Assembly (NCBI RefSeq): GCF_014635665.1 | Contig: NZ_BMDG01000004.1 | Span: 62,001 to 126,000 of the forward strand | Direction: 5' to 3' | DNA length: 64,000 bases | Source of the DNA: Isoptericola cucumis | GTDB taxonomy: Bacteria > Actinomycetota > Actinomycetes > Actinomycetales > Cellulomonadaceae | Part shown: positions 24,295 to 41,491 of the stretch, one piece after another | How the letters are laid out: each line of letters begins with the position of its first letter | How positions within the stretch are numbered: the first letter of the stretch is position 1 | Notes under the pieces: model-generated | Databases searched by the model: none | What the model was told of the DNA's origin: nothing | What the model saw: only the letters and a program-made list of their open reading frames with translations | Position numbers and translations under genes: made by a program

Positions 24295-24337
24295 CCCGGG
24301 CGGGCCGAGGGGTTCCGGCGGCCCGCGACGGGTCGAG

Positions 24338-24857: not shown

Positions 24858-24917
24858 CTCGCCAACCTCGACGCCAGGGCGGCCTCAGGGCTCCTCGTGC
24901 AACGTTCTGGGAAATGA

Positions 24918-24937
24918 CATACCGGCCGGTCGGTTTT
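24918..24937. promoter_or_regulatory. Catabolic-regulon operator A, upstream of the Liv-type importer operon
   Basis: CATACCGGCCGGTCGGTTTT matches operator B (33977-33996) at 15 or more of 20 positions; the left arm and central CGGTCGGT are kept and the right arm is weakened. It is 40 bp before the livG-like start, next to a TATCGT box (24943-24948) that could be the -10. Confidence 0.7.
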
Positions 24938-24976
24938 TCGGCTATCGTGGGGCGTACCCGACACGAAGAGGTGCCG

Positions 24977-26574: not shown

Positions 26575-26583
26575 GAGGAACTC

Positions 26584-27462
26584 ATGGACCGGCTCGTCCT
26601 GCTCGTCTCGACCGGCGTCGCCCGCGGCCTCGTGATCGCGCTCTTCGCCCTGTCGCTCGTCATCATCTGGCGTGCCGCGCGCATCGTGAACTTCGGACAG
26701 GCCGCGATGGCCGTGGTGGCCGTCTACGTCGCCTTCGCGGTGCACGCGGCCACCGGCTCGTACGTGCTGGCGGTGCTCGGTGCGCTCGTGACCGGGGCCC
26801 TGCTGGGGCTCGCCGTCGAGCGCGGCCTGATGCGCCGCGTCCCCGGCGCCACCCCGATGCCAGGGATGATCGTGGCGATCGGGCTGGTCATGGTGCTGCA
26901 GTCGCTGCTGGGCGTCCTGTTCGGCCCCCGGCACCGACCCATGAGCCCGGTCTTCTCGCAGAGCCCGCTGTACGTCGGGGACGTCCCGGTCCTGTCGCGC
27001 TACGACCTGTTCGTGCTCGTCGTGGCGCTCGTGGTCGTCGTCGGGCTCGGCCTGCTGTTCAACCGCTCGACCCTCGGCCTGCAGCTGCGGGCGGCGGCCG
27101 TCGCGCCCGAGGTCTCGCGGCTGCTGGGGGTGCGCGTGCCCCGCATGGTCACGATCGGCTGGATGCTGTCGTCCGCGGTGGCGGCGCTCGCGGTGCTCCT
27201 GCTGGTGCCCACCGAGCTCGGGCTCAACGCGCACTCCGCGGACGTGCTCTTCGTGCACGCGTTCACGGTGGCCGTGCTCGGCGGGCTCGACTCGCCCGCG
27301 GGCGCCCTGGTCGGCGGGCTCGTCGTCGGCGTCCTCATCAGCCTCGTGACGGGGTACGCGTCGGCGGGCCTGGCGCCGCTGGCCGTGCTCGGGTTGCTGA
27401 CCACCGTGCTGCTCGTCCGCCCGGGCGGCATCTTCGCGACGAAGGAGGCCCGGACGGCATGA
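26584..27462 (+). CDS. HAAT-family ABC importer permease, LivH-like
   Basis: 292 residues, about eight membrane helices. LVIIWRAARIVNFGQAAMAVVAVYVAF is the LivH-type N-terminal motif (normally NFAQG) and VAVLGGLDSPAGALVGGLVVGVL is the conserved coupling region. Membrane-embedded half of the channel with LivM. RBS GAGAGGA precedes ATG; the stop overlaps the livM start by ATGA. Confidence 0.92.
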   Translation: MDRLVLLVSTGVARGLVIALFALSLVIIWRAARIVNFGQAAMAVVAVYVAFAVHAATGSYVLAVLGALVTGALLGLAVERGLMRRVPGATPMPGMIVAIGLVMVLQSLLGVLFGPRHRPMSPVFSQSPLYVGDVPVLSRYDLFVLVVALVVVVGLGLLFNRSTLGLQLRAAAVAPEVSRLLGVRVPRMVTIGWMLSSAVAALAVLLLVPTELGLNAHSADVLFVHAFTVAVLGGLDSPAGALVGGLVVGVLISLVTGYASAGLAPLAVLGLLTTVLLVRPGGIFATKEARTA

Positions 27463-28589
27463 CTCGGACCACCGCGCGGAACGGCGCACGGAGCAGCACC
27501 CGGACCATCGTCCTGCGCGCCATCATGCTCACGGTGCTCGCGCTCGCGGCGACGTTCGCCCTGGACCCGTTCCGCAACTACCAGCTCGCCGTCGTCGCGG
27601 CGACGTTCTGCGCGACGGCGGGCCTGACGCTCCTCGTCGGGCTCACGGGCCAGCTCTCGCTCGGCCACGGCGTGCTCATGGCGGCGGGCGGCTACGGGTA
27701 CGCCCTCGTCGCGGGCCCCGCCGCGGACGCGGGGCTCGGCGGCGTCGGTCGGTTCGCCCTCGGCATCGCCGGGGCGCTGGTCCTGTCGGCGGTCGTCGGC
27801 GGGCTGCTCGGCCTGGCGGGGGCGCGACTGCGCGGCCCCTACCTGGCCGGGCTGACGCTCGCGCTCGTCATCGCGCTGCCCGCCGTGGCGACCCAGGTCC
27901 CCGGGCTCGGCAAGGACCAGGGCCTAGGCGTCCCGTTCGAGGCGGTGCCGGCGCCGCTGGCGGGCGTGATGGTCGTCGAGCAGTGGCACGCGTGGATCGC
28001 GATCGTCGTGGCCGCCGTCGCCGTCACCCCGCTGGTCGTGCTGCGTTCGGGGCCCGCGGGCCTGCGCATGCGCGCGACCCACGGGGACGAGGTCGCGGCC
28101 CGGCTCGCCGGGATCTCGCCGGCGCGCGTCAAGGTGACGGCGTTCGTCGCCAGCTCCGTCTCGGCGGGGCTCGGCGGGGCGGTGCTGGCGGTCGTGGCGC
28201 AGAACGTCGGCCCGGGACGCTACTCGCTCGCGTTCTCGCTGCTGCTCCTGGTCGCCGTCGTGGTCGGCGGCCTCGGGAGTGTCGGGGGAGCGGCGGTCGG
28301 CGCCGCGCTCGTCGTCCTGCTGCCGTGGCTCGTCGACACCGTCGTGTCGGGCGCCGGCATGCCCGCCGACCTCGAGCAGCGGCTGTCCGGCAACCTCGCC
28401 GTCGCCGTCTTCGGCGCGCTGCTCGTCGCCGTGACCGTGGCCTGGCCGGGCGGCCTCGCCGGCGCCACCGCCGGGCCGCGCGCCCGCCTGGCCCGCCGAC
28501 GGCGCCCGGCCCCCGCCCCTGTCCTCGACCCGGATACCGACCCGGCCCAAGAGCCCACGTCCGACCCGCAACCGCTCACAGAGAGGTGA
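27459..28589 (+). CDS. HAAT-family ABC importer permease, LivM-like
   Basis: 376 residues. The first about 20 residues are basic and hydrophilic; then about ten membrane helices with the LivM motif TGQLSLGHGVLMAAGGYGYA and the region VGGLGSVGGAAVGAALVVLLPWLVD. The last about 40 residues are Pro/Asp-rich and probably cytoplasmic. Partner of the LivH-like subunit. Confidence 0.92.
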   Translation: MTRTTARNGARSSTRTIVLRAIMLTVLALAATFALDPFRNYQLAVVAATFCATAGLTLLVGLTGQLSLGHGVLMAAGGYGYALVAGPAADAGLGGVGRFALGIAGALVLSAVVGGLLGLAGARLRGPYLAGLTLALVIALPAVATQVPGLGKDQGLGVPFEAVPAPLAGVMVVEQWHAWIAIVVAAVAVTPLVVLRSGPAGLRMRATHGDEVAARLAGISPARVKVTAFVASSVSAGLGGAVLAVVAQNVGPGRYSLAFSLLLLVAVVVGGLGSVGGAAVGAALVVLLPWLVDTVVSGAGMPADLEQRLSGNLAVAVFGALLVAVTVAWPGGLAGATAGPRARLARRRRPAPAPVLDPDTDPAQEPTSDPQPLTER

Positions 28590-28594
28590 CTCCG

Positions 28595-29908
28595 ATGCGG
28601 AATCACGCCACCACCCCCACGCCCCGACGCGCCCCCGGGCGCGCGCCCCGACCACCCGCCGTGCGGGCGGCGGCCGCGGCCTCCGCCGGCGTCGTCGGGC
28701 TGGCCCTGACCGCGTGCAGCAGCCCCGCGGCCGCCACCCCCGGCATCGACGACGAGACCGTGACGGTCGGGACGCACCAGCCCCTGACCGGCCCGGCGGC
28801 CGCCGGGTTCGCGTCGATCTCGGCCGCGACGTCGGCGTACTTCGAGCACGTCAACGCGAACGGCGGGATCAACGGCCGCACCATCGAGTACGTCGTCAAG
28901 GACGACGGCTACAACCCCGCCACCACGCAGACCGTGGTGCGCGAGCTCGTGCAGGAGGACGAGGTCTTCGCGATGCTCAACGGGCTGGGCACGCCCACCC
29001 ACTCGTCGGTGCTCGACTACCTCGACCAGAACGGGGTGCCCGACCTGTTCGTCGCCTCCGGCAGCACCACCTGGAACCAGCCCGAGGAGTACCCGAACAC
29101 CTTCGGCTTCAACGTGGACTACGTGGTCGAGGGCGCCGCCCTGGGGCAGTACGCGGCCGACCAGGACCCGGGTGCGGTCGTCTGCGTGCTCGGCCAGGAC
29201 GACGACTTCGGCGAGACGTTCCTCCAGGGCGTCGAGCTCGCGCTCGGGGCGGACGGCGTGGCGACGTACCAGACGTACTCGACGTCGAACGAGGACGTCA
29301 CCGCGCAGATCGGCGCCATGCGCAAGGCCGGCTGCGAGATCAACCTGCTGGCCACGATCAACGGCTTCACGGCGATGTCCCTCGGCACGGCCGCGAAGAT
29401 GGGCTGGTTCCCGCAGTGGTACGCCTCGTCGTCCGGCGGCGACTACCCGACCTTGGTCGAGTTCCTGGGCGAGGACGTCGGCCCGAAGCTCCTGGACGGC
29501 TTCGTGAGCGCGAACTACCTGCCCAACAGCCCCGGCAGCGACTGGTACGAGCTGTTCCAGCAGATCAACGACGAGCACAACGCCGGCGCGCCGTTCGACG
29601 GCAACACGGTCTACGGCATGAGCGTCGGCTACCTGTTCGCCGAGGCGCTGGCGAAGGCGGGCGAGGACCCGACGCGCGAGTCGCTGGTCGAGGCCGTCGA
29701 GTCGGGTGAGCTCGCGGGCAACGGGATCCTGCCGCTGTCGTTCGGCCCGGACGACCACGCCGCGTACGACGGCGTCGGCATCGCCGTCGTGTCCGGCGGT
29801 GTGCAGGACTTCGTGGACGCGACCTACCGGGTGGACGGCGACACCGTCGAGGCGGTGGAGCCCGAGCCCGTGCCGCTGGAGGACGACGGCGTCCCCACCT
29901 CGGACTGA
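28595..29908 (+). CDS. HAAT-family substrate-binding lipoprotein, LivK-like
   Basis: 437 residues. A long basic N-region and hydrophobic stretch end in lipobox LTAC (Cys about 46), so it is a membrane-anchored lipoprotein. The body is a type I periplasmic-binding fold: VTVGTHQPLTGPAAAGFASISAATSAYFEHVNANGGINGRTIEYVVKDDGYNPATT is the Peripla_BP_6 opening. Ligand class in this family covers branched-chain amino acids, amides, short acids and aromatic acids. Its place beside acyl-CoA catabolic genes suggests a carboxylate (inference). ATG 28595 follows GAGAGG. A very strong terminator follows. Confidence 0.93.
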   Translation: MRNHATTPTPRRAPGRAPRPPAVRAAAAASAGVVGLALTACSSPAAATPGIDDETVTVGTHQPLTGPAAAGFASISAATSAYFEHVNANGGINGRTIEYVVKDDGYNPATTQTVVRELVQEDEVFAMLNGLGTPTHSSVLDYLDQNGVPDLFVASGSTTWNQPEEYPNTFGFNVDYVVEGAALGQYAADQDPGAVVCVLGQDDDFGETFLQGVELALGADGVATYQTYSTSNEDVTAQIGAMRKAGCEINLLATINGFTAMSLGTAAKMGWFPQWYASSSGGDYPTLVEFLGEDVGPKLLDGFVSANYLPNSPGSDWYELFQQINDEHNAGAPFDGNTVYGMSVGYLFAEALAKAGEDPTRESLVEAVESGELAGNGILPLSFGPDDHAAYDGVGIAVVSGGVQDFVDATYRVDGDTVEAVEPEPVPLEDDGVPTSD

Positions 29909-29920
29909 CCGTCAGAGCGT

Positions 29921-29977
29921 GGTGGGGACGACGTCGACGGGAGGCCGGACCGGACTCCCGCCGACGTCGTCCCCACC
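29921..29977. terminator. Very strong bidirectional terminator
   Basis: GGTGGGGACGACGTCG (29921-29936) pairs perfectly over 16 bp with CGACGTCGTCCCCACC (29962-29977); an inner GGGAG/CTCCC extends the stem. It separates the convergent importer operon and acyl-CoA ligase gene. Confidence 0.9.
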
Positions 29978-29992
29978 GGGCTGCAGGACGGT

Positions 29993-31582
29993 TCAGAGGA
30001 CGGGGGCGAACTGGTCCTGCAGCGCGCGCTTGAGGATCTTGCCGCTCGGCCCGACCGGCAGCTGGTCGACCACGTGCACGACGCGCGGGTACTTGAAGGC
30101 GGCGACCCGCTCGCGCACGTGCTCGCGCAGCGCCTCGGCGTCGACGGTGTGGCCGTCCTTCGCCACGACGGCCGCGTGGATCTCCTGGCCGTGCACGGCG
30201 TCGTCGAGCCCGAACACGGCCGCCATCGCGACGTCGGGATGGTCGACCAGCACCGACTCGACCTCCGTCGGATACACGTTGTAGCCGTTGCGGATGATCA
30301 TGTCCTTCTTGCGGTCGACGATCGTGATGATGCCGTCGGCGTCGACGGTGCCCAGGTCGCCGGTGCGGAACCAGCCGTCGGCGACGACCGCCGCCGACGC
30401 GTCCGGACGGCCGAGGTAGCCCTTCATGAGGTTGTGCCCCCGCACCACGAGCTCCCCGAGCACGCCCGGCTCGGTCAGCAGGTCGACCCGGTCCTCGACG
30501 AGCGGGTCGGCCGCGGCGACGTCCACGCCCCACATCGAGCGGCCGACCGTGCCCGGCCGGATCGGCTCGTAGATCGTGTTGAAGGACACCGACGGCGACG
30601 TCTCGGTGAGGCCGTAGCCCTCGTGCACCTCGGCGCCGTACGCCCGGGCGAAGCCCTCGAGCACCGCCGTCGGCAGGGCGGCCCCGCCGGAGACGGCGTA
30701 CCGGAGCGGCGGGCGGTCGGCGTTGCGGCCGGCCGCCTCGATCATGCCGACGAACATCGTCGGCACCGCCGTGAACACCGTGGCGCCGTGCGCCACCAGC
30801 AGCTCCAGCGCGGCGTCGGGGTCGAACTGGGGCAGCAGGACGATCGAGGCGCCCACGCGGAACGCCATGTTCATCACCGCCATCTGGCCGAACGCGTGGA
30901 ACAGCGGCAGGCCGCCGAAGACGACGTCGTCGGCCCGCAGGTCGAAGGAGTCGATGAGCGAGCAGTGCACCTGCTCGACCGCCGCCAGGTGCGACCCCAC
31001 GGCCCCCTTCGGGGTGCCGGTCGTGCCGCTGGTGTACAGGATCGTGGCGGCGTCGGTCGGGTGCACGGGCGTGTGCCGGGCCACGGGCACGGCGGCGGCC
31101 GCCTCGTCCTCCAGGCGCGGCAGGTCGGGGCCGCCGGCGCTCGCGGGCGGGGCCAGCACCGTGACCAGCGGGACGCCCGCGGCCCGGGCCGCGGGCAGGG
31201 CCTCGCCGAGCAGCGGGGCGGCGGCCACGACCAGGTCGGCGCCGCTGTCGCGCAGCACGAACTCGATCTCGCGCGCCTTGAACAGCAGGTGCACGGGCAC
31301 GGCGACCGCGCCCAGCACCTGGGCCGCGTAGAACGCCCGGGGGAAGTCGGGGACGTTGGGCACGACGATCGCCACCCGGTCGCCGCGGCCGATGCCCCTG
31401 GCCGCGAGCGCGCCCGCGTAGGCGAGGGTCTGGGACCACAGCTCGCCGTACCGGGTGGTCGTGCCCATGAAGTGCAGGGCGGCGCGCCCGGGGGAGCGGG
31501 TCGCCGTCTCGGCCAGGATGCTGGCCAGGGACAGGGTGCCGAAGCCGGGGCCGTCGACCGCCTCGTCGGGGGTGTGCGTCAT
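29993..31582 (-). CDS. Acyl-CoA ligase (FadD-like, ANL superfamily)
   Basis: 529 residues. AMP-forming motifs are in order: P-loop ILYTSGTTGTPKGAV (about 172-186), YAVSGGAALP, GYGLTETSPSVSF (A5), WFRTGDLGTVDADGIITIVDRKKDMIIRNGYNVYP (A7-A8) and the adenylation Lys in PSGKILKR near the C-terminus. It activates a carboxylic acid to its CoA thioester with ATP. It is the last gene of the kinase-dehydrogenase-ligase operon driven from operator B, corresponding in role to LvaE of the levulinate pathway. ATG 31582 has a GAGAGGA site; 59 bp separate it from the upstream dehydrogenase. Confidence 0.92.
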   Translation of the reverse strand: MTHTPDEAVDGPGFGTLSLASILAETATRSPGRAALHFMGTTTRYGELWSQTLAYAGALAARGIGRGDRVAIVVPNVPDFPRAFYAAQVLGAVAVPVHLLFKAREIEFVLRDSGADLVVAAAPLLGEALPAARAAGVPLVTVLAPPASAGGPDLPRLEDEAAAAVPVARHTPVHPTDAATILYTSGTTGTPKGAVGSHLAAVEQVHCSLIDSFDLRADDVVFGGLPLFHAFGQMAVMNMAFRVGASIVLLPQFDPDAALELLVAHGATVFTAVPTMFVGMIEAAGRNADRPPLRYAVSGGAALPTAVLEGFARAYGAEVHEGYGLTETSPSVSFNTIYEPIRPGTVGRSMWGVDVAAADPLVEDRVDLLTEPGVLGELVVRGHNLMKGYLGRPDASAAVVADGWFRTGDLGTVDADGIITIVDRKKDMIIRNGYNVYPTEVESVLVDHPDVAMAAVFGLDDAVHGQEIHAAVVAKDGHTVDAEALREHVRERVAAFKYPRVVHVVDQLPVGPSGKILKRALQDQFAPVL

Positions 31583-31641
31583 GTCCGGTCCTCTCGTCGT
31601 CGTTGATCGTGGACTGGTGGGTCGTGAGCGGGTGCGGTGCG

Positions 31642-32859
31642 CTACGGGCGGAGCTCCGCCCTGCCGAGCGCGCTCAGGTGCACCTCGTCGGGCCCGTCGG
31701 CCAGGCGCAGCGCCCGCGCCCCGGCGAACATCTCGGCCAGGGGCTGGTCGCCGGACAGCCCGGCGGCGCCGAAGAGCTGCATGACGTGGTCGAGGATCGC
31801 CTGCACGGCCCGCGGCACGGCGATCTTGATCGCCTGGATCTCCGTCATCGCCTGCTTGTTGCCGACGGTGTCCATGAGCCAGGCGGTCTTGAGCACCAGC
31901 AGCCGCAACGCCTCGACCTCGATGCGCGCGTTCGCGACCCACTCGCGGACCACGCCCTGGTCGGCCAGCGGGCGGCCGAACGCCATGCGCTCGCGGGCGC
32001 GGTCGGCGGCGAGGGCCAGGGCGCGCTCCGCCGTGCCGAGCGCCCGCATGCAGTGGTGGATCCGGCCGGGCCCCAGCCGGGCCTGGGCGGCGGCGAAGCC
32101 CTCGCCCTCGCCGCCCAGCAGGTGCGAGGCCGGGACGCGGACGTCGTCGAAGACGATCTCGGCGTGCCCGCCGTGGTCGCGGTCGTCGTAGCCGAGCACG
32201 GTCAGGGGCCGCACGATCGTCACGCCCGGCGTGTCGCGGGGCACGAGCACCATCGACTGCTGGCGGTGCCGCGGGGCGTCGGGGTCGGTCTTGCCCATGA
32301 CGATCAGCAGCGCGGCGTCCGGGTTCATCGCGCCGGTGGACCACCACTTGCGCCCGGTGACGACGAGCTCGTCGCCGTCGCGGCGGATCCGCGTGCCGAT
32401 CTGCGTGGCGTCGGACGACGCGACGTCGGGCTCCGTCATGCAGAAGGCCGAGCGGATGCGGGCGTCCAGCAGGGGCTCGAGCCAGCGCTCGCGCTGCTCG
32501 GGGGTGCCGAAGTGGGCCAGGAGCTCCATGTTCCCGGTGTCCGGGGCGGCGCAGTTGAGCGCGACGGGCGCCAGGCGCGGGCTCCACCCGGTGAGCTCCG
32601 CGAGCGGGGCGTACTGGAGGTTGGTGAGGCCGGCGCCGTACGGCCCGGTCGCCCCGCCGGCGGGCAGGAAGAGGTTCCACAGCCCGTGGGCGCGGGCGGC
32701 GTCCTGCAGCTCGCGCACCACGGGGCGCAGCGACCACTCGCCCGGGGTGGCGTCGAGCTGGGCGTCGAGCACGGGCTCCGCGGGCAGCACCCGGTCGTGC
32801 AGGAACGCGCGCACCTGCGCGGTGAGCTCGGCGGTGCGGTCGTCGGGGGCGAAGTCCAC
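31642..32859 (-). CDS. ACAD10/11-type acyl-CoA dehydrogenase family protein (LvaC-like)
   Basis: 405 residues, acyl-CoA dehydrogenase fold with FAD/substrate motifs AFCMTEPDVASSDATQI and VTGRKWWSTGAMNPDAALLIVMGKTDPDA. LGPGRIHHCMRALG and LRLADGPDEVH are hallmarks of the ACAD10/ACAD11 subgroup; at the position of the canonical catalytic Glu (YEGT in MCAD) this protein has ADGP with Asp. Members paired with the kinase eliminate phosphate from a 4-phosphoacyl-CoA rather than desaturate an acyl-CoA (known for LvaC and ACAD10/11). The GTG start is 1 nt past the kinase stop, so the two are co-translated. Confidence 0.9.
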   Translation of the reverse strand: MDFAPDDRTAELTAQVRAFLHDRVLPAEPVLDAQLDATPGEWSLRPVVRELQDAARAHGLWNLFLPAGGATGPYGAGLTNLQYAPLAELTGWSPRLAPVALNCAAPDTGNMELLAHFGTPEQRERWLEPLLDARIRSAFCMTEPDVASSDATQIGTRIRRDGDELVVTGRKWWSTGAMNPDAALLIVMGKTDPDAPRHRQQSMVLVPRDTPGVTIVRPLTVLGYDDRDHGGHAEIVFDDVRVPASHLLGGEGEGFAAAQARLGPGRIHHCMRALGTAERALALAADRARERMAFGRPLADQGVVREWVANARIEVEALRLLVLKTAWLMDTVGNKQAMTEIQAIKIAVPRAVQAILDHVMQLFGAAGLSGDQPLAEMFAGARALRLADGPDEVHLSALGRAELRP

Positions 32860-32860
32860 G

Positions 32861-33934
32861 TCAGGCCACCGTCCCGTCCGTCGCCCCGGTCGTGGTCCGG
32901 GCCGTGTGGGCCAGGCCGTCGGCCGCCAGCGGGGCCACGAGGTCGCCGATGACCGCGAAGCCGTCCCCGACGGTGTCCCCGGCGCGGTAGCGGTAGTGGA
33001 TCCCCTCGAGGATCACCGCGAGCTTGTACGCCGCGAAGGCGCGGTACCAGCCCAGCTGCGGCAGCGACGTGCCGGACCGCGCCGCGTACGTGTCGACGAG
33101 CTCGTCGAACTCCGGATACCCGGCCCCCGCGGTGACGGCGCTGGTGGCGCCGTGCCCGTCGCTGACGGCGTTGATGTCCCAGTACAGGCCGAGCATCCCG
33201 AGGTCGACGAGCGGGTCGCCGAGGGTGGCCATCTCCCAGTCGAGGACGGCGGCGAGGCGCGGGGCGTGGGCCGGGCCGGCGACGATCGCGTTGTCGAGGC
33301 GGTAGTCCCCGTGCACGATGCCGGTACGCCCGTGGTCGGCCGGCAGCCGGGTGGCGAGCGCGTCCTGCAGGTCGTCGAGGACGGGCAGCTCGCGCGACCG
33401 GGAGGCGTCGTACTGGCGCCGCCACGTGGCCAGCTGACGCTCGAGGTAGCCGGCCGGGCGCCCGAAGTCCGCGAGCCCGACGGCCGCCGGGTCGACGGCG
33501 TGCAGGTCGGCGAGCGTCTCGGCCAGCGCCAGGCCGAGGCCGTGCAGCCCGTCGGGGGTGTACGCGGCGTTCTGCTCGGGGCGCGCGAGGACGGTGCCGT
33601 CGACGCGTTCCATCACGAAGAACACGGTGCCGGTGACCGCCTGGTCGGCCGTGTCGTCGACGACGTCGATCGTGCGCGGCACCGGGACGCGGCTGCCGGC
33701 GAGCGCCGAGATGACGCGGTGCTCCCGGCGCATGTCGTGCGCGCTGGACAGCACGTGCCCCAGCGGAGGGCGGCGCAGCACGAGGGGGAGGCGTGCGCCG
33801 TCGACCCGGTAGGTGAGGTTGCTCCGGCCGCCGGTGATCACCTCGGCGGTGAGCGGGCCGTCCGCGAGGTCCGGGTGGGCGTCGGCCAGCCATCGGGTGA
33901 GGCCGGCGTGGTCCAGGCCGGGCACTTCGGTCAT
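32861..33934 (-). CDS. ACAD10/11-type phosphotransferase (4-hydroxyacyl-CoA kinase candidate, LvaA-like)
   Basis: 357 residues of the APH/choline-kinase fold: ITGGRSNLTYRVDGARLPLVLRRPP (nucleotide loop and Lys/Arg), FVMERVDG (hinge), TGIVHGDYRLDNAIV (catalytic Asp and Asn) and VLDWEMATLGDPLVDLG (metal Asp). GLADFGRPAGYLERQLATWRRQYDAS is characteristic of the kinase domain fused to ACADs in mammalian ACAD10/11 and of bacterial LvaA. Predicted to phosphorylate the 4-hydroxyl of a 4-hydroxyacyl-CoA. First gene of the operon; ATG 33934 has GGAGGG upstream and operator B lies 43 bp further up. Not an antibiotic kinase on motif grounds. Confidence 0.88.
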   Translation of the reverse strand: MTEVPGLDHAGLTRWLADAHPDLADGPLTAEVITGGRSNLTYRVDGARLPLVLRRPPLGHVLSSAHDMRREHRVISALAGSRVPVPRTIDVVDDTADQAVTGTVFFVMERVDGTVLARPEQNAAYTPDGLHGLGLALAETLADLHAVDPAAVGLADFGRPAGYLERQLATWRRQYDASRSRELPVLDDLQDALATRLPADHGRTGIVHGDYRLDNAIVAGPAHAPRLAAVLDWEMATLGDPLVDLGMLGLYWDINAVSDGHGATSAVTAGAGYPEFDELVDTYAARSGTSLPQLGWYRAFAAYKLAVILEGIHYRYRAGDTVGDGFAVIGDLVAPLAADGLAHTARTTTGATDGTVA

Positions 33935-33973
33935 CGTCGACCCTCCTTCCGTCGTTCGTCGTCGGGACCTGGC

Positions 33974-33996
33974 GAGCATACCGCGCGGTCGGTATG
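33974..33996 (-). promoter_or_regulatory. Catabolic-regulon operator B with -10, kinase-dehydrogenase-ligase operon
   Basis: CATACCGCGCGGTCGGTATG (33977-33996) has perfect 7-bp arms CATACCG/CGGTATG. It is the exact reverse complement of operator C at 41472-41491. On the minus strand the palindrome runs into TATGCT (33974-33979), a probable -10, so a bound regulator would block initiation. Confidence 0.88.
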
Positions 33997-34033
33997 AAGG
34001 GCGACTACGTCGCCTCTTGGGTGCCGGTCTCGC

Positions 34034-34483
34034 TCAGTCCGTGAGCGCGGCGACGGCCGTGCGCAGCAGGTCCGGCACCGGGACCGGCCGCCGCGTCGCG
34101 GCGTCGACGAAGACGTGGGTGAAGCGGCCGACGGCGATCGGGCCGGCGGCGTCGTCGGCTCCGTCGGCCCCGTCGGCTCCGTCGGCCCCCTCAGTGGCCC
34201 CGGCCCGCAGGATGTGCAGGTCCCAGGTGAGGCTGGTGCGGCCGACCTTCTCCACGCCGATCGCGACCGCGAGCTCCTCGGGGTACGACGCCGACGCGCG
34301 GAACTCGCACGACGAGGCGACGCACAACCCGATGACGTCGCCCGCGGGGTCGAGGCCACCGCGCGCGATCATCCAGGCGTTGACCGCCGTGTCCATCGCC
34401 TCGTAGTAGACGGTGTTGTTGGCGTGGCCGTACTGGTCGTTGTCGTTCCAGCGCAGCGGGAACGGGTGGCGGGCGCGGGGCAT
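34034..34483 (-). CDS. Acyl-CoA thioesterase, 4-hydroxybenzoyl-CoA thioesterase (hotdog) family
   Basis: 149 residues. The N-terminal motif RWNDNDQYGHANNTVYYEAMDTA contains the catalytic Asp and the GHxNN element of YbgC/4HBT hotdog thioesterases. A Gly-Ala-Asp repeat insertion (GADGADGADGAD, about 98-110) lies in a surface loop. It could recycle CoA from dead-end thioesters of this pathway. Lies between the QsdR-family regulator and the kinase operon on the same strand. Confidence 0.87.
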   Translation of the reverse strand: MPRARHPFPLRWNDNDQYGHANNTVYYEAMDTAVNAWMIARGGLDPAGDVIGLCVASSCEFRASASYPEELAVAIGVEKVGRTSLTWDLHILRAGATEGADGADGADGADDAAGPIAVGRFTHVFVDAATRRPVPVPDLLRTAVAALTD

Positions 34484-34549
34484 CGGTCTCCTTCGACGCG
34501 GGGTGATGGCGGGGGCTGTGGCGGGGTGCCCGCCGGTGGCGGGCGGGCG

Positions 34550-35245
34550 TCAGGCGACGCGCAGCAGGTGCCGGAAGGCCGTGCGGGCGGCGGCCGGGCT
34601 CGGCTCGTCGCCGGCGATGAGGTCGGCGTACGTGAAGGACTCCGAGACCCGCACGAGCAGGTAGGCGAGCGTCGGCGGGTCGATCGCGCCGTCGAACGGC
34701 GTGTCGCCGAGGTGGGTGCGCACGAGGCGCTCTGCCGTGGCCGTGTAGCGGCGCTGGATCGGGCTCGCCTTGGTGGTCAGCAGGCGCAGCGCCCGGGCCG
34801 GCTCGCGCCGCAGGAAGTCGCGGAAGTAGTCGGCGGCGATGAGGTCCGTCGCGAAGTGCGTCAGCAGCGCGGCCACGCGCTCCGCACCGTCCAGGTCGGC
34901 CGTCGCCCGGTCGGCCTGGCCCAGGGTCGGCACGGCGAGGGACCACAGCACCTCGGTGAGCAGGGCGTCGCGATTGCCGACCCACCGGAACACCGAGGTG
35001 CGGTCGACGCCGAGCGTCGTCGCCATCCCGCCCATGTCGATCCGGCCGCCGGCGACGAAGATCTCGCGCGCCAGGTCGAACGCCCGCCGTGCGTCGGGGT
35101 GCGCCTCGTCGGCCAGCCGTGCGGAGAGCCGGGTGGGCGCGGCGAGCAGCCCGACCGTGCTGATCGAGGGGCTGATCGAAGGGCTGGTCGAGGAGCCGGT
35201 CGAGGTGGCGGGCGGCGGGCTGCTCGGAGAATCCGGCGACGGCAT
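34550..35245 (-). CDS. QsdR-family (TetR-type) transcriptional regulator
   Basis: 231 residues. A Ser/Pro-rich about 30-residue N-terminus precedes a TetR-like DNA-binding domain (AFDLAREIFVAGGRIDMGGMATTLGVDRTSVFRWVGNRDALLTEVLWSL). The QsdR-type C-terminal domain follows (FLRREPARALRLLTTKAS; TLAYLLVRVSESFTYADLIAGDEPS). QsdR in Rhodococcus represses a gamma-lactone (AHL lactonase) catabolic operon, so its presence beside a putative 4-hydroxyacid pathway is suggestive. Probable leaderless start: TAGGCT lies 6 nt before ATG 35245. Divergent from an acyl-CoA dehydrogenase gene, with an inverted repeat in between. Confidence 0.87.
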   Translation of the reverse strand: MPSPDSPSSPPPATSTGSSTSPSISPSISTVGLLAAPTRLSARLADEAHPDARRAFDLAREIFVAGGRIDMGGMATTLGVDRTSVFRWVGNRDALLTEVLWSLAVPTLGQADRATADLDGAERVAALLTHFATDLIAADYFRDFLRREPARALRLLTTKASPIQRRYTATAERLVRTHLGDTPFDGAIDPPTLAYLLVRVSESFTYADLIAGDEPSPAAARTAFRHLLRVA

Positions 35246-35276
35246 GCCCGCAGCCTAGCGCCGGGACGACCGAAGG

Positions 35277-35302
35277 GTGCAACATAATCAAAGATGATGC
35301 AC
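35277..35302. promoter_or_regulatory. Inverted repeat between QsdR-family gene and acyl-CoA dehydrogenase
   Basis: GTGCAACAT-N8-ATGATGCAC: 8 of 9 arm positions are complementary. It overlaps CATAAT (35283-35288), a good -10 for the rightward operon. AT-rich compared with its surroundings. Candidate operator of the divergent QsdR-family regulator (inference). Confidence 0.6.
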
Positions 35303-35368
35303 ACTGACCGGCAGCCAGCGCACCGCAGCGCACGAGCGGCGCGCGATCGACGACGATCGGAGCACAGC

Positions 35369-36637
35369 ATGACCGCGACACCCGCCACCACGACCCCGAC
35401 CCCGGCCACAGCCACGACCACGGCCACAGCCACGGACGCAGCGCCGGGCGCCGGCGCCCCGGCGGCGTCCGTCCTGGACGCCGACTTCTACGGCTTCCAG
35501 AACCTGCTGTCGGCCCGCGAGCAGGAGACCGTCCTCGCCGTGCGCGAGTTCATGGAGCGCGAGGTGCGGCCCATCGCGGACGACTACTGGGAGCGGTCGG
35601 ACTGCCCGGTGCACCTGTTCAAGCCGTTCGCCGCGCTCGGCACGGTGGGGGCGGCGTGGTCCGAGACCGCCGGGTTCGCGAGCTCCGCGGTGTTCCGCGG
35701 CTGGATCGGCATGGAGCTGGCCCGGGTGGACTCCTCGTTCTGCACGTTCATCGGCGTCTCCAGCGGCCTGGCGATGAGCTCCATCGGCCTGGGCGGCTCG
35801 GCCGCCCAGCGCGAGCAGTGGCTGCCGCCCATGGCGCGCGGCGACGTCATCGGCGCGTTCGGCCTCACCGAGCCGCTGTCCGGCTCCGACACGGCCAAGG
35901 GGCTGCGGACCACCGCCACGCGCCACGGCGACACGTGGGTGCTGCACGGCGCCAAGCGCTGGATCGGCAACGCGACCTTCGCCGACGTCGTCGTCGTCTG
36001 GGCCAAGGACACCGCCGACGACCAGGTGAAGGGGTTCCTGGTGCGTCGGGGCACGCCCGGGTTCACCGCCACCAAGATCGAGCGCAAGCAGTCCCTGCGC
36101 ATCGTGCAGAACGCGGACATCGTGCTCGACGGCGTCGAGGTCGCCGAGAGCGACCGGCTGCAGGGGATCGACTCGTTCCGCGACCTGGCGAACGTGCTGC
36201 GCGTGACCCGCGACGGCGTCGCCTGGCAGTCCCTGGGCACGATGATCGGCGCCTACGAGGCCGCCGTGGCGTACACGGCGCAGCGCGAGCAGTTCGGCCA
36301 CCCGATCGCCAGCTACCAGCTGGTCCAGGACAAGCTCGCCACGTGCCTGGGCAACATCACCGCGAGCCTCGCCGTCTGCGTGCGGGTGTCCCAGCTGCAG
36401 GACGACGGCACGCAGCGTGACGCGCACGCGGCGATGGCGAAGTCTTTCGTCACCACCCGGATGCGCGAGACCGTCGCGCTGTGCCGCGAGGCGTGCGGCG
36501 GCAACGGCATCACCCTCGATGCCGGCGTCGCGCGGTTCTTCGCGGACGCGGAGGCCGTGTACACGTTCGAGGGCACCCGCGACATGAACAACCTCATCGT
36601 CGGCCGCGAGATCACCGGCCACGCGGCGTTCGCCTGA
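35369..36637 (+). CDS. Acyl-CoA dehydrogenase, glutaryl-CoA-dehydrogenase/ACX4-like
   Basis: 422 residues. The first about 30 are an Ala/Thr/Pro run. The ACAD body follows with FGLTEPLSGSDTAKGLRTTA, GAKRWIGNATFADVVVVWAKD, a region with EACGGNGITLD, and the catalytic Glu intact in YTFEGTRDMNNLIVGREITG, the ending seen in glutaryl-CoA dehydrogenases and plant ACX4. FAD-dependent oxidation of an acyl-CoA, either alpha,beta-desaturation or with decarboxylation. ATG 35369 has CGGAG upstream; ATG 35294, 5 nt after CATAAT, is an alternative leaderless start that adds 25 basic residues. A thiolase gene follows. Confidence 0.88.
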   Translation: MTATPATTTPTPATATTTATATDAAPGAGAPAASVLDADFYGFQNLLSAREQETVLAVREFMEREVRPIADDYWERSDCPVHLFKPFAALGTVGAAWSETAGFASSAVFRGWIGMELARVDSSFCTFIGVSSGLAMSSIGLGGSAAQREQWLPPMARGDVIGAFGLTEPLSGSDTAKGLRTTATRHGDTWVLHGAKRWIGNATFADVVVVWAKDTADDQVKGFLVRRGTPGFTATKIERKQSLRIVQNADIVLDGVEVAESDRLQGIDSFRDLANVLRVTRDGVAWQSLGTMIGAYEAAVAYTAQREQFGHPIASYQLVQDKLATCLGNITASLAVCVRVSQLQDDGTQRDAHAAMAKSFVTTRMRETVALCREACGGNGITLDAGVARFFADAEAVYTFEGTRDMNNLIVGREITGHAAFA

Positions 36638-36690
36638 GCCCGCGGCCACCTCGCACCACCCCGACCTCGCACCGACCCGAAGGAGACACC

Positions 36691-37926
36691 ATGACCGAGG
36701 CCTACATCGTCGCCACCGCGCGATCGCCGATCGGCCGCGCGTACAAGGGGGCGCTGGCCACCGCGCGGGCCGACGACCTCGCCGTCCAGATGGTGCAGGC
36801 CGCCGTCGGCCGGGTACCCGGGCTCGACCCGGCCCGCATCGACGACCTGATGCTGGGCTGCGGCCTGCCAGGCGGCCGCCAGGGCATGAACATGGCCCGG
36901 ATCGTGGCCGTGCTGGCCGGCTGGGACACCGTCCCGGGCACCACCGTCACCCGCTACTGCTCGTCCAGCCTGCAGACCACGCGCATGGCGTTCCACGCCA
37001 TCAAGGCGGGGGAGGGGGACGTGTTCGTCTCGGCGGGCGCGGAGTCCGTGAGCGGCATGGCCGTCGGGTCGAGCGACGACATCCCCGGCGCGACCCTCAC
37101 CAACCCACGGTTCGCCGGCGCGGCGGAGCGCACCGCCGAGCGCGCCGAGGGCGGCGCGCCGGCGTGGCGGGACCCGCGCGCCGACGGCCTGCTGCCCGAC
37201 CCGTACATCGCGATGGGCCAGACGGCCGAGAACGTCGCCGCCCTGCACGGGGTCTCGCGCGCCGAGCAGGACGAGTTCGCCGCCCGCAGCCAGCAGCGCG
37301 CCGCCAAGGCGATCGCCGACGGCTTCTGGGAGCGCGACATCACCCCCGTGCGGCTCGACGACGGCACGGTCGTGCGCGCCGACGACGGCCCGCGGCCCGG
37401 CACCACCGTGGAGAAGCTGGCCACCCTCGAGCCGGTGTTCCGGCCGGACGGCACGGTCACCGCGGGCAACGCCTGCCCGCTCAACGACGGCGCCGCCGCC
37501 GTCGTCGTGGTCTCCGACCGGGTCGTGGACGAGCTGGGCCTGACCCCGCTCGCCCGCATCGTGTCCACCGGGGTGACCGGCCTGTCGCCGGAGGTCATGG
37601 GCCTCGGCCCGGTCGAGGCCAGCCGGCAGGCGCTCGCCCGCGCCGGGCTGGGTGTCGAGGACATGGGGCTCGTCGAGATCAACGAGGCGTTCGCCGCGCA
37701 GGTGATCCCCTCGGCCCGCGAGCTCGGCGTCGACCCCGAGCGGCTCAACACCCGCGGCGGCGCCATCGCCGTCGGGCACCCGTTCGGCATGACCGGCGCC
37801 CGCATCACCTCCACCCTGATCAACGGGCTCGAGGCCACCGACAGCCGCTACGGCCTGGCGACCATGTGCGTCGGCGGCGGGCAGGGGATGGCGATGGTGC
37901 TGGAGCGGCCTGCCTCGCGGTACTGA
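36691..37926 (+). CDS. Acetyl-CoA C-acyltransferase (thiolase)
   Basis: 411 residues, the normal thiolase length. The nucleophilic Cys is in RYCSSSLQT (about residue 90), with INEAFAAQ, GGAIAVGHPFGMTGAR (catalytic His) and CVGGGQGMAM (second Cys). It would split a 3-oxoacyl-CoA into acetyl-CoA and a shortened acyl-CoA, the last step of the pathway encoded around it. AAGGAG precedes ATG 36691; 53 bp separate it from the dehydrogenase, so an operon is likely. Confidence 0.93.
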   Translation: MTEAYIVATARSPIGRAYKGALATARADDLAVQMVQAAVGRVPGLDPARIDDLMLGCGLPGGRQGMNMARIVAVLAGWDTVPGTTVTRYCSSSLQTTRMAFHAIKAGEGDVFVSAGAESVSGMAVGSSDDIPGATLTNPRFAGAAERTAERAEGGAPAWRDPRADGLLPDPYIAMGQTAENVAALHGVSRAEQDEFAARSQQRAAKAIADGFWERDITPVRLDDGTVVRADDGPRPGTTVEKLATLEPVFRPDGTVTAGNACPLNDGAAAVVVVSDRVVDELGLTPLARIVSTGVTGLSPEVMGLGPVEASRQALARAGLGVEDMGLVEINEAFAAQVIPSARELGVDPERLNTRGGAIAVGHPFGMTGARITSTLINGLEATDSRYGLATMCVGGGQGMAMVLERPASRY

Positions 37927-37954: not shown

Positions 37955-38797
37955 TCACCCCACGAGCGTCTGCGTGCCCAGCACGACGGCGAGCGCGAGG
38001 CGGTCGGCGTCCTCGGAGCCCGGTTCGGCGCTGTAGACCATGATCCGCAGGTCGTCGCCGGCGACGACGAGCGTGTCGCAGTCGACGGCGATCCGGCCGA
38101 CCGTCGGGTGGTCGACGACCTTGTGCCGTGACGGGTCCGCGCGACCGGGGACCCCGGCCGCCTCCCACAGGTCGGCGAACCGCGGGCTCCGGGTGGCCAG
38201 CTCGTCGACGAGACGTCGCACCCTCGGGTCCGCGGGGTAGCGCGCCGCCGTCATGCGCAGGTCGCCGACGAGCCCGGCGACCAGGTCGGCGTGCTCCTCG
38301 GCGGTCTGGACGACCCGGGAGCCGGCGTCGACGACGTGGCGCCAGATCGCGTTGCGCTCGATGCCGCGCCAGCTGGTCGTCGTGCCCAGGAGCGCGTCGT
38401 ACGGCGGGTTGGCCCGCACGAGGTTCCACATCGCGTCGTAGACGGCGACCGGGTTGCCGTCCAACCGGTCGAGGAGCCGCTGCACGCTCGGCGGGATCCG
38501 TGCCGGGACCGCCCCGGCGCCGGGCAGGGCGAGGTTCGCGAGCCGGAACAGGAGCTCCCGCTCGCGGTCCGAGAGCCGCAGCGCCCGGGCGAGCGCCTCG
38601 GTGACCTGGGCCGACGGTGCCGTCGCGCGACCCTGCTCGAGGCGGGTGAGGTAGTCCATGGAGATGCCCGCGAGGTCCGCGAGCTCCTCCCGGCGCAGCC
38701 CCTTCGCCCGGCGTCGCGTGCCGACTCTGGCACCGACGGCCTCGGGGGCGACGCGGTCGCGCCACCGTCGCACCGCCTGACCGAGCTCGTTGGACAC
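37955..38797 (-). CDS. XRE-family regulator with MmyB-like ligand domain
   Basis: 280 residues. The N-terminal XRE helix-turn-helix (about 20-85: VGTRRRAKGLRREELADLAGISMDYLTRLEQGRATAPSAQVTEALARALRL) is followed by an MmyB-type PAS-like domain (ANPPYDALLG; WRHVVDAG; DLVAGLVGDLRMTAARYPADPRVRRLV; VVDHPTVGRIAVDCDTLVVAGDDLRIMVYSAEPGSEDADRLALL-type ending). This family commonly represses a divergent SDR gene, as arranged here. GTG 38797 and GTG 38800 are both possible starts. Confidence 0.9.
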   Translation of the reverse strand: MSNELGQAVRRWRDRVAPEAVGARVGTRRRAKGLRREELADLAGISMDYLTRLEQGRATAPSAQVTEALARALRLSDRERELLFRLANLALPGAGAVPARIPPSVQRLLDRLDGNPVAVYDAMWNLVRANPPYDALLGTTTSWRGIERNAIWRHVVDAGSRVVQTAEEHADLVAGLVGDLRMTAARYPADPRVRRLVDELATRSPRFADLWEAAGVPGRADPSRHKVVDHPTVGRIAVDCDTLVVAGDDLRIMVYSAEPGSEDADRLALAVVLGTQTLVG

Positions 38798-38866
38798 CAC
38801 CCTCCGAGTGTGCGACGCGGACGACGTCCTGTCCTGGCCCTGGGAGTCCTACGACAACGGGACGAC

Positions 38867-38895
38867 TGTCAGCGACACCGCCGCGGGGCGACGCT
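38867..38895 (+). promoter_or_regulatory. Promoter of the divergent SDR gene
   Basis: TGTCAG (38867-38872) and GACGCT (38890-38895) are 17 bp apart; ATG 38902 is 6 nt after the -10, fitting the leaderless pattern. The XRE regulator is expected to act here, but no clear palindrome was found. Confidence 0.5.
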
Positions 38896-38901
38896 CGAGA
38901 C

Positions 38902-39609
38902 ATGACGACCACACTCATCACAGGAGCGACCAGGGGACTCGGCCAGGAGACGGCCCGCCGGCTGAGCGATGCCGGGCACGCGGTCTGGGTCGCGGCGCGC
39001 GACGAGGCCCGCGGGCGCGCCGTCGCGCAGGAGATCGGGGTGCGCTTCGTGCACCTCGACGTGCTCGACGACGCGTCGGTCGAGGCGGCCGCCGCCCGCG
39101 TCGAGGCCGAGGGCGGGCTGGACATCCTCGTCAACAACGCGGGGATCGAGCCGCGGATGGCGGAGAACGTGATCCCGGCGGCGTCGGACGAGATGGCCCA
39201 GGATGTCCGCCGGACGTTCGAGACCAACGTGCTCGGCACGGTCCGCGTCACGCACGCCTTCTGGCCGTTGCTGCAGCGCTCGTCCGCCCCGGTGATCGTC
39301 AACCTGTCCAGCGGGCTCGCGTCGCTGACCCTCCTGAGCGACCCGGACGGCCCGACCCACTTCTACGCGGGCCTGAGCTATCCGGCCTCCAAGGCCGCGG
39401 TGAACGCGCTCACGATCCAGTACGCGAAAGCCTTCCCGGCGGCACGGATCAACGCCGTCGAGCCCGGGTTCACGAGCACCGCCCTCAACGGCTTCACCGG
39501 CACGCAGACCGTCGCCGAGGGCGCCGCGACCGTCGTCCGGATGGCTCAGGTCGGCCCCGACGGGCCGACGGGCACCTTCGTCTCCCCACGCGGTGAGCTG
39601 CCGTGGTGA
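38902..39609 (+). CDS. SDR family NAD(P)-dependent oxidoreductase
   Basis: 235 residues. TGATRGLGQETAR cofactor loop, AARDEARGR after beta-2 (basic, NADP-type), NNAG, catalytic Ser in LSSGLAS and Tyr/Lys in YPASK. It resembles the SDR proteins regularly found opposite MmyB-type XRE regulators. Substrate unknown; it may not belong to the neighbouring acyl-CoA pathway. Confidence 0.87.
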   Translation: MTTTLITGATRGLGQETARRLSDAGHAVWVAARDEARGRAVAQEIGVRFVHLDVLDDASVEAAAARVEAEGGLDILVNNAGIEPRMAENVIPAASDEMAQDVRRTFETNVLGTVRVTHAFWPLLQRSSAPVIVNLSSGLASLTLLSDPDGPTHFYAGLSYPASKAAVNALTIQYAKAFPAARINAVEPGFTSTALNGFTGTQTVAEGAATVVRMAQVGPDGPTGTFVSPRGELPW

Positions 39610-40162: not shown

Positions 40163-40621
40163 TCAGGCCTGCGGGACGTAGAGCGCCAGGGTCTGCGCGA
40201 CGAGGGCCGGCCTGTCGGTCCCCTCGATCTCCACGGTGACCGTGGAGGCCAGGCGCACGCCCTGGGGGACGTCCTCGGCGCCGGTGACCTCGGTGGTGGC
40301 GCGGACGCGGGACCCCGCCGGCACGGGCGTCAGGAAGCGCACCTTGTCCAGGCCGTAGTTCATCGCCATGGCGACGCCGCCCACCTCGACCAGCGACGAG
40401 GCGAGGTGCGGCAGCAGCGACAGGGTGAGGAACCCGTGCGCGATCGTCGTGCCGAAGGGCCCCGACGCGGCGCGCTGCGGGTCGACGTGGATCCACTGGT
40501 GGTCCGCGGTGGCGTCGGCGAACGCGTCGATGCGCGCCTGGTCGACCGTGAACCACTCGCCCGTGGCACGCTGCCCCACGGCGTCGGCCAGCGCGGCAGG
40601 CGAGGCCACGCGGATGCTCAT
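40163..40621 (-). CDS. MaoC-family (R)-specific enoyl-CoA hydratase
   Basis: 152 residues, one hotdog domain with the hydratase-2 motif DHQWIHVDPQRAASGPFGTTIAHGFLTLSLLP (catalytic Asp and His). It would add water to a trans-2-enoyl-CoA, giving a 3-hydroxyacyl-CoA for the dehydrogenase encoded just upstream (ATGA overlap). The pair sits behind operator C. Confidence 0.9.
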   Translation of the reverse strand: MSIRVASPAALADAVGQRATGEWFTVDQARIDAFADATADHQWIHVDPQRAASGPFGTTIAHGFLTLSLLPHLASSLVEVGGVAMAMNYGLDKVRFLTPVPAGSRVRATTEVTGAEDVPQGVRLASTVTVEIEGTDRPALVAQTLALYVPQA

Positions 40622-41379
40622 GCCTTCGGCCCGCCGGCCACGTAGAGCACCTGCCCGGAGACGAAGGACGCCTCCTCGGAGCAGAAGAACGCCGCCGCGG
40701 CAGCGATGTCCTCCGGCTGGCCGACGCGGCCGACCGGGACGTCCTTGGCCGCAGCTGCGTGGAACTCCTCGGGTGTCATGCCGATGCGCTCGGCGGTCGC
40801 GGCGATCATGTCGGTGGCGATGACGCCCGGCGCGATGGCGTTGGCCGTGACGCCGAACTTGCCGAGCTCGATCGCGAGCGTCTTGGTGAAGCCCTGCATC
40901 CCGGCCTTCGCGGCGGAGTAGTTCGCCTGGCCGCGGTTGCCCAGCGCCGAGGTGCTGGACAGGTTGACGACCCGTCCCCAGCCGGCGTCGACCATGTGCT
41001 TCTGCACGGCCCGCGTCACGAGGAAGGCCCCGCGCAGGTGGACCCGCAGGACGTCGTCCCAGTCGTCCTCCGTCATCTTGAACAGCAGGTTGTCGCGCAG
41101 GATGCCGGCGTTGTTGACCAGGATGGTGGGTGCGCCGAGCTCGTCGGTCACGCGGGCGACCGCGGCGGTGACGGCGTCGGCGTCGGTGACGTCCACGCCG
41201 ACGCCGATCGCGCGCCCGCCGCCCGTCGTGATGGCCTCGGCGGTCTCGGCGGCCTGCTCGGCGAGGAGGTCCAGGACGGCGACGGCGTGCCCGTCGGCGG
41301 CGAGCCGGCGGGCCGTCGCGGCGCCGATGCCGCGCGCCCCTCCGGTGACGATCGCGGTGCGGGGCTGGTCGGTGGGCAT
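40618..41379 (-). CDS. FabG-type 3-hydroxyacyl-CoA/3-oxoacyl-ACP dehydrogenase (SDR)
   Basis: 253 residues. TGGARGIGAATAR, VLDLLAEQ (Asp after beta-2), NNAGILRDNLLFKMTEDDWD, VNLSSTSALGNRGQANYSAAKAGM (Ser, Tyr, Lys) and ITVTANAIAPGVIATDM-type FabG signatures. Acting on CoA esters it would oxidise the MaoC product to a 3-oxoacyl-CoA for the thiolase (inference). ATG 41379 has GAGAGGA upstream; operator C lies 93 bp before it. Confidence 0.9.
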   Translation of the reverse strand: MPTDQPRTAIVTGGARGIGAATARRLAADGHAVAVLDLLAEQAAETAEAITTGGGRAIGVGVDVTDADAVTAAVARVTDELGAPTILVNNAGILRDNLLFKMTEDDWDDVLRVHLRGAFLVTRAVQKHMVDAGWGRVVNLSSTSALGNRGQANYSAAKAGMQGFTKTLAIELGKFGVTANAIAPGVIATDMIAATAERIGMTPEEFHAAAAKDVPVGRVGQPEDIAAAAAFFCSEEASFVSGQVLYVAGGPKA

Positions 41380-41468: not shown

Positions 41469-41491
41469 CAGCATACCGACCGCGCGGTATG
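41469..41491 (-). promoter_or_regulatory. Catabolic-regulon operator C with -10, fabG-maoC operon
   Basis: CATACCGACCGCGCGGTATG (41472-41491) is the exact reverse complement of operator B (33977-33996). As at operator B, reading on the transcribed minus strand the palindrome runs into TATGCT (41469-41474). Confidence 0.88.

Follow-up and report, generated by a model that had tools for sequence, protein, structure and literature searches.

Gene organization of the island

The 64-kb window analysed here, a stretch of the Isoptericola cucumis genome (assembly of 4.46 Mb in 29 contigs; GC content of 71–81% along the window), contains a gene island that includes a kinase gene and an acyl-CoA dehydrogenase (ACAD) gene. 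Genes were called with the authors' own script, and all coordinates are window positions. On the minus strand, the kinase gene (32861–33934) is followed after a gap of 1 nucleotide (nt) by the dehydrogenase gene (31642–32859) and then by an acyl-CoA ligase gene (29993–31582); the open frame at 29993–32737 is too long for the ligase. A strong AAGGAGG site is located at the kinase start (33934), and the kinase–dehydrogenase junction reads TGA-C-GTG, from which translational coupling of the two genes is plausible. The three proteins match the Pfam domains APH (169 bits), Acyl-CoA_dh_1 (123 bits) and AMP-binding (282 bits), respectively. These calls and domains bear out the three neighbours named in an earlier interpretation of the letters alone (the sequence-only reading). 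That reading did not contain FadE, the 4HBT protein, the two TetR regulators, two more SDRs, the MDR reductase or the five-gene ABC transporter, which are included in the following list.

21076–21095, no strand: PfmR-like operator, 38 nt before SDR 21134; the weakest of four, 3 mismatches
21134–21874, plus strand: SDR oxidoreductase that may carry out a 4-oxo/4-hydroxy redox step (putative LvaD-like role); 38% identical to Thermus TTHB016
21886–22497, plus strand: PfmR-like TetR regulator (TetR_C_24) that presumably binds the four operators; 32% identical to Thermus TTHB023 over 198 aligned positions
22475–23557, plus strand: MDR/quinone-oxidoreductase-like reductase, present in island loci
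23554–24294, plus strand: another SDR oxidoreductase that may carry out the redox step at position 4; 40% identical to Thermus TTHB016
24918–24937, no strand: PfmR-like operator with 2 mismatches, 39 nt upstream of the ABC transporter operon
24977–29908, plus strand: branched-chain-type ABC transporter of five genes, identified by Pfam/profile matches
24977–25774 (start ATG at 24977) and 25771–26574, plus strand: ABC ATPases
26584–27462 and 27459–28589, plus strand: ABC permeases
28661–29908, plus strand: ABC binding protein, found in 15/15 family genomes with an ACAD11-type dehydrogenase
29993–31582, minus strand: AMP-forming acyl-CoA ligase, not found in 6/15 close relatives
31642–32859, minus strand: ACAD10/11-type acyl-CoA dehydrogenase, predicted to eliminate phosphate from 4-phosphoacyl-CoA
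32861–33934, minus strand: ACAD10/11-type kinase of the APH fold, predicted 4-hydroxyacyl-CoA kinase
33977–33996, no strand: PfmR-like operator with 0 mismatches, 42 nt upstream of the kinase start
34034–34483, minus strand: 4HBT thioesterase-like protein, found in 15/15 loci L081–L095
34550–35245, minus strand: second TetR regulator (TetR_C_36), divergent from FadE
35369–36637, plus strand: ordinary acyl-CoA dehydrogenase (FadE) without the ACAD11 signature
36691–37926, plus strand: thiolase (NF005890/PRK07851 equivalog, 703.7 bits; cut-off 580)
40163–40621, minus strand: MaoC-type hydratase (profile match), outside 29993–37926
40618–41379, minus strand: FabG-type reductase/dehydrogenase with a 4-nt overlap with MaoC, outside 29993–37926
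41472–41491, no strand: PfmR-like operator with 0 mismatches, 92 nt upstream of FabG

Classification of the dehydrogenase and the kinase

The dehydrogenase is of the ACAD10/11 type by score and by residues. In a PDB search, human ACAD11 scored 426 bits, and two mouse ACAD11 entries and the 'putative acyl-CoA dehydrogenase' 4hr3 scored 420–422 bits, compared with 132 bits for the best ordinary ACAD. In mouse ACAD11, R626, H634 and R637 are reported to bind phosphate, D753 to be catalytic and R631 to be conserved across ACADs (PMC12440821). The equivalent residues of the window dehydrogenase are R261, H269, R272, D388 and R266, respectively, and all five are kept; the window FadE has the R631 equivalent only and lacks the other four. 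The signature R-GPGR-HH-MR was observed in 130/132 ACAD11-like matches of the fetched loci, 82 of which came from a scan whose patterns included GPGRIHHC; the fair count is therefore the 49/50 in loci not picked by signature, next to 81/82 in the signature-biased scan. Pseudomonas is not represented among the 80 loci retained from that scan. The I. cucumis genome has no second copy of the dehydrogenase, and its next match is 34% identical.

The kinase is assigned to the ACAD10/11 type by score, residues and tree. Its best solved matches are 9o56 (195 bits), 3dxp (176–178 bits) and mouse ACAD11 (164 bits), and capreomycin phosphotransferase scored 35 bits. The kinase motifs HGDYRLDN and GYLERQ align with HGDFKLDN and GYCKRQ, by which the positions of the catalytic D220 and N225 and of the substrate arginine R176 are kept. 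At the published R86 position, counting along the printed alignment gives no arginine, and an arginine is found beside the α-C glutamate in both sequences.

Two kinase trees were built. The first contained 79 rows: the window kinase, four PDB fragments and kinases chosen by hand from 119 that had been extracted; rows shorter than 230 residues were left out, and APH paralogues of the same genome contributed no rows. Kinases linked to DUF6285 (PF19802, which we take to be the LvaB family) came together in a single clade of 23 rows (100/99), and the window kinase was placed among ACAD11-linked actinobacterial kinases (99/90). Long branches meeting at 9fsg were flagged in this tree. The second tree (41 rows), which omitted 9fsg and included the Thermus kinase TTHB014, reproduced the split at 100/100 with TTHB014 in the DUF6285-linked clade; the support for the actinobacterial group was lower (87/85), and its joins with mouse ACAD11 and Bacillus kinases were moderate. 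Both trees group the kinase with ACAD11-linked kinases and apart from those linked to DUF6285, and the ACAD10/11-type pair proposed in the sequence-only reading holds in scores, residues and tree.

That the kinase gene encodes an antibiotic phosphotransferase and just happens to adjoin an ACAD gene is scarcely credible. Antibiotic phosphotransferases belong to the same superfamily and give weak NCBIfam matches (44.5 bits; cut-off 390), but this identity was rejected on the gap between the scores of mouse ACAD11 and 9o56 and that of capreomycin phosphotransferase; moreover, the kinase gene adjoins an ACAD11-type dehydrogenase gene in several phyla.

A shared PfmR-like operator

Inspection of palindromes upstream of the operons yielded the pattern CATACCGnnCGGTCGGTATG, which was derived from two of the window sites. 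With no more than 3 mismatches allowed, the window contains seven matches to it, counted over both strands at four places, against an expectation of 0.07, and none of 100 shuffles reached seven. The operator precedes both the kinase operon and the FabG-MaoC operon. A palindrome beside the TetR_C_36 gene (35277–35302; 9-nt arms with one mismatch and an 8-nt gap) differs from the shared operator.

The window sites resemble those of Thermus PfmR. Sites of PfmR (TTHB023) are given as TACCGACCGNTNGGTN after Agari et al., together with a broader consensus (PMC7022988), and the four window sites differ from TACCGACCGNTNGGTN by 2, 1, 1 and 1 mismatches. In a PDB search, the second-best chain for the TetR protein encoded at 21886–22497 (TetR 21886) is 3vpr, presumably the PfmR structure. 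As a PfmR-like repressor, this TetR probably switches the four operons through the shared operator; its identity as the regulator and its inducer are presumed.

Conservation of the operator was examined in 18 island loci (L081–L095 and L138–L140), with a site counted when located at most 300 nt upstream. The site was found upstream of the kinase gene in 17/18 loci and of ABC1 in 13/16. For comparison, it was found upstream of FadE in 2/18 and of ACAD11 in 0/18, and the genes TetR36, thiolase, ligase, ACAD11, 4HBT, ADH22475, SBP and MaoC together gave 2/122. In non-island loci, the site lies upstream of the kinase gene in 27/76 loci, compared with 1/108 for ACAD11; the loci with an operator upstream of the kinase gene include those of Streptomyces, Amycolatopsis and Microbispora. 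Of 40 controls made by permuting the motif, 35 had no hit; three scored 1/76, one 1/18 and one 16/18, and the last almost surely kept the true CATACCG arms by chance and is no independent control. In 73 non-island loci with a kinase match of at least 150 bits, the site was present in 24 of the 28 that encode a TetR sharing 40% identity or more with TetR 21886 and in 3 of the 45 that do not (p 4e-12; many of the loci are from Streptomyces and are not independent). In Burkholderia cenocepacia, PaaR-linked control of the phenylacetic acid genes is reported to require the core ACCGACCGGTCGGT as well (PMC2770484), and thus the pathway cannot be read from the operator alone.

Conservation of the island

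The dehydrogenase gene was found in 19 of the 57 relatives searched (loci L081–L099). In 14 of these 19 loci, the five transporter genes and the genes for the kinase, dehydrogenase, thioesterase, FadE, thiolase, MaoC and FabG lie within ∼20 kb; gene order is rearranged in L093, where the genes are still together. The MaoC, FabG and thiolase genes that the sequence-only reading had noted nearby consequently belong to the same conserved island, and two of them share the operator of the kinase operon. The kinase gene stands beside the dehydrogenase gene in every one of L081–L095, in a kinase search that covered dehydrogenase-bearing genomes only. Two Microbacterium genomes also carry the island (L138, with no thioesterase hit, and L140), and Virgisporangium, Winogradskya and Nocardioides terrae retain the transporter, SDR, kinase and dehydrogenase. 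At the thresholds used, the ACAD11-type dehydrogenase, the binding protein and FadE are jointly present in 15 of 36 family genomes and jointly absent from the other 21 (binding protein versus ACAD11, Fisher p 2e-10 with kinship ignored). Outside the family the correspondence is looser: the binding protein of G039 is encoded elsewhere, and G042 and G048 encode a relative of FadE but not the dehydrogenase.

Eight same-genus genomes, three with the dehydrogenase and five without it, also encode thiolase, 3-hydroxyacyl-CoA dehydrogenase and ACAD domains elsewhere. The island looks accessory for this reason, and its role as the only β-oxidation set of the genus was rejected (8/8 genomes). No description of the island was found in the open-licence PMC literature, as searched mostly at title or listing level.

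Three intervals of the window adjoin the island genes. The interval 24295–24976 (minus strand), upstream of the ABC operon, holds frame-broken remains that by eye resemble a small-molecule phosphotransferase (GDLHHG-type stretch). Between the convergent binding-protein and ligase genes, a long inverted repeat without a T run (29915–29980) is perhaps a two-way terminator. The interval 37955–39609, between the thiolase gene and the MaoC-FabG operon, encodes an MmyB-like regulator and an SDR, neither of which appears in the tblastn maps of L081–L095.

Absence of DUF6285

The sequence-only reading had seen no LvaB-like partner and had taken its absence as a possible sign of a variant pathway. The absence was upheld, with no DUF6285 match in the I. 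cucumis genome; the conclusion drawn from it was not. Among 296 sampled Actinomycetota genomes, an ACAD11-like dehydrogenase (E up to 1e-60) is present in 122 and DUF6285 (E up to 0.001) in 25, 24 of which are among the 122. Accordingly, 98 of the 122 genomes with the dehydrogenase have no DUF6285. Where DUF6285 does occur, a kinase match is found within the ∼1.5 kb of flank covered in 24/29 loci. Moreover, the passages on the Pseudomonas citronellolis lva region in PMC6692424 report no lvaB homologue, and mammalian ACAD10 and ACAD11 are described as sufficient in vitro without an LvaB-like partner (PMC12440821, PMC11342911). Absence of LvaB is therefore common on the evidence of the 98/122 genomes and the P. 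citronellolis region, and the missing LvaB was rejected as the mark of a variant pathway. The open-licence PMC literature searched yielded no mention of DUF6285.

Proposed pathway and alternatives

The island is likely dedicated to the breakdown of 4-hydroxy (or 4-oxo) carboxylic acids. We infer the activities, the substrate and the order of steps; at the sequence level, the support consists of family placement, active-site residues, island conservation, co-occurrence and operator conservation. In the known chemistry, the kinase phosphorylates the 4-hydroxyl of an acyl-CoA; for the dehydrogenase, a mechanism has been suggested in which C2 is deprotonated, FAD takes part transiently and the phosphate is eliminated (PMC12440821, PMC11342911). 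In the proposed route, the branched-chain-type ABC transporter would import the acid, which would be converted to its acyl-CoA by the island ligase or another ligase, and an SDR would reduce the 4-oxo group where present. The kinase would then phosphorylate the 4-hydroxyl of the acyl-CoA, and the ACAD11-type dehydrogenase would eliminate the phosphate to give a 2-enoyl-CoA, a step that uses FAD but involves no net oxidation. MaoC would hydrate this product, FabG would oxidize it and the thiolase would cleave it, with FadE allowing further rounds; the PfmR-like TetR would switch the four operons through the shared operator. In plain terms, the island probably takes up a compound that resembles a fatty acid but bears an awkward hydroxyl, phosphorylates this hydroxyl for removal and burns the rest, a trick recently discovered in mice as well.

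Several observations weigh against this route. In the window, FadE-thiolase has no shared operator; in the island loci, a site lies within 300 nt upstream of FabG in only 3/15 and of SDR 21134 in only 5/13, with the FabG-side site more than 300 nt upstream in several, and 49/76 non-island loci have no such site at the kinase gene. L095 (G033) keeps part of the island, with the transporter, MaoC and FabG not in the 20 kb seen and the binding protein ∼17 kb away. Four more distant relatives (G036, G039, G041 and G057; L096–L099) have the dehydrogenase without the island, and two of them keep an SDR, an MDR reductase and the kinase nearby. The ligase gene, whose product is a candidate equivalent of LvaE, was found in nine of L081–L095; it is absent from 6/15 close relatives, and by eye no obvious ligase replaces it between the kinase and thioesterase genes in five of the six ligase-less loci (L090 excluded). 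The FadE gene of the relative G019 reads with one stop. The co-occurrence and operator counts come from related genomes and are not independent; L095 and L139 (Cellulomonas cellasea), for example, are near-copies with almost identical kinases. Finally, the island may serve another hydroxyacyl-CoA.

In the same five ligase-less loci, by eye, two genes between the kinase and thioesterase genes are α/β-hydrolase-like and four encode one unidentified protein; the α/β-hydrolase-like gene in L085 and L091 is a possible lactonase.

Two alternatives retain the kinase and dehydrogenase chemistry, and both are considered unlikely. The island could be a levulinate (C5) pathway directly equivalent to lvaABCDE: it has the same functional set of ligase, SDR, kinase and ACAD11-type dehydrogenase, and the absence of lvaB has its precedent in P. 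citronellolis; but one round on a C5 acid would yield acetyl-CoA and propionyl-CoA and make FadE superfluous, and the regulators and the importer are of TetR and ABC types in place of the σ54-type LvaR and the ActP-type LvaG (PMC6692424). Levulinate alone seems less likely because FadE suggests more than one round, which hints at acids longer than levulinate; levulinate is one candidate substrate. The hydroxyl could instead be removed from another compound, for instance an acid that is branched, cyclic or derived from an aromatic. In NCBIfam, SDR 23554 scores best against a trans-4-hydroxycyclohexanecarboxylate dehydrogenase (246 bits, short of the cut-off of 400), the transporter is of the branched-chain type and the operator core recurs at the Burkholderia phenylacetate genes (PMC2770484), whereas the phosphate-binding and catalytic residues of a 4-phosphoacyl-CoA enzyme are kept and the island proteins scanned include no phenylacetate genes.

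Far less probable is that the pair turns over γ-butyrolactone-type signals and not a nutrient. γ-Lactones hydrolyse to 4-hydroxy acids, and on a plasmid of Streptomyces sp. NBC_00388 (L104, 5658–17508) the kinase, ACAD11-type dehydrogenase, MaoC and FabG genes adjoin an AfsA-like gene and ketoacyl synthase genes, which suggests a γ-butyrolactone link. No AfsA-like gene was found among the island proteins scanned, however, and the importer, ligase, FadE and thiolase fit feeding. The degradation route for 4-hydroxy or 4-oxo acids is preferred.

Little was found in the literature on bacterial pathways around such enzymes outside Pseudomonas. The chemistry of the enzyme pair is of a known kind; an LvaB-free, transporter-fed island under a PfmR-like operator is new with respect to the literature searched. 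The conserved island, the importer, the complete β-oxidation set and the shared operator together form a testable regulon, which also provides LvaB-free kinase–dehydrogenase pairs for work on levulinate and γ-lactones and suggests a function for the operon of a studied Thermus regulator.

Comparison with known systems

The PfmR operon of Thermus thermophilus (TTHB014–TTHB023, plasmid pTT27) is listed in PMC7022988 as encoding a TetR, an ACAD, a hypothetical protein, a 3-oxoacyl reductase, MaoC, a second hypothetical protein, a ligase-related protein, gluconate 5-dehydrogenase (SDR), an ACAD and a phosphotransferase. In the pTT27 locus analysed here (L218; NC_006462, 3545–12247), the order is TetR, ACAD, serine hydrolase, SDR, MaoC, PaaI thioesterase, AMP-binding protein, SDR, ACAD, kinase, DUF6285 and histidine phosphatase; the gene for the AMP-binding protein seems to be truncated. 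TTHB015 has 4/4 of the ACAD11 residues and TTHB022 has 0/4. Identities to the window proteins are 39% for TTHB015, 28% for TTHB014, 40% for TTHB016 (SDR 23554), 38% for MaoC, 35% for FabG and 32% for the TetR. Because an ACAD11-signature dehydrogenase, a kinase, DUF6285 and a histidine phosphatase are present, the PfmR operon may degrade 4-hydroxyacyl-CoA; the PfmR papers returned by the open-licence PMC search contain no LvaA, ACAD11 or 4-hydroxyacyl-CoA. By annotation, a similar enzyme set is encoded in D. radiodurans (L219) and Cytobacillus (L220).

The window and the Thermus operon share a TetR-type regulator, the operator core TACCGACCGGTCGG, an ACAD, FabG, MaoC, a thioesterase, an AMP-binding gene, an SDR, the ACAD11-signature dehydrogenase and the kinase. 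DUF6285 and the histidine phosphatase are found only on the Thermus side, where the kinase belongs to the DUF6285-linked clade and the stretch seen has no importer. The Pseudomonas lva loci (P. putida lvaABCDE; P. citronellolis, PMC6692424) likewise keep kinase, ACAD10/11-type dehydrogenase, ligase and SDR genes together. They are described with a σ54-type LvaR and an ActP-type permease, whereas the window has TetR-type regulators, an ABC importer and its own MaoC, FabG, FadE and thiolase. The I. cucumis genome lacks DUF6285, and the island genes include no histidine phosphatase. Mammalian ACAD10 and ACAD11 (PMC12440821, PMC11342911) have the same catalytic and phosphate-binding residues in kinase and dehydrogenase, but they combine both in one polypeptide, whereas the window encodes them as two genes in an island with a transporter and a full β-oxidation set.

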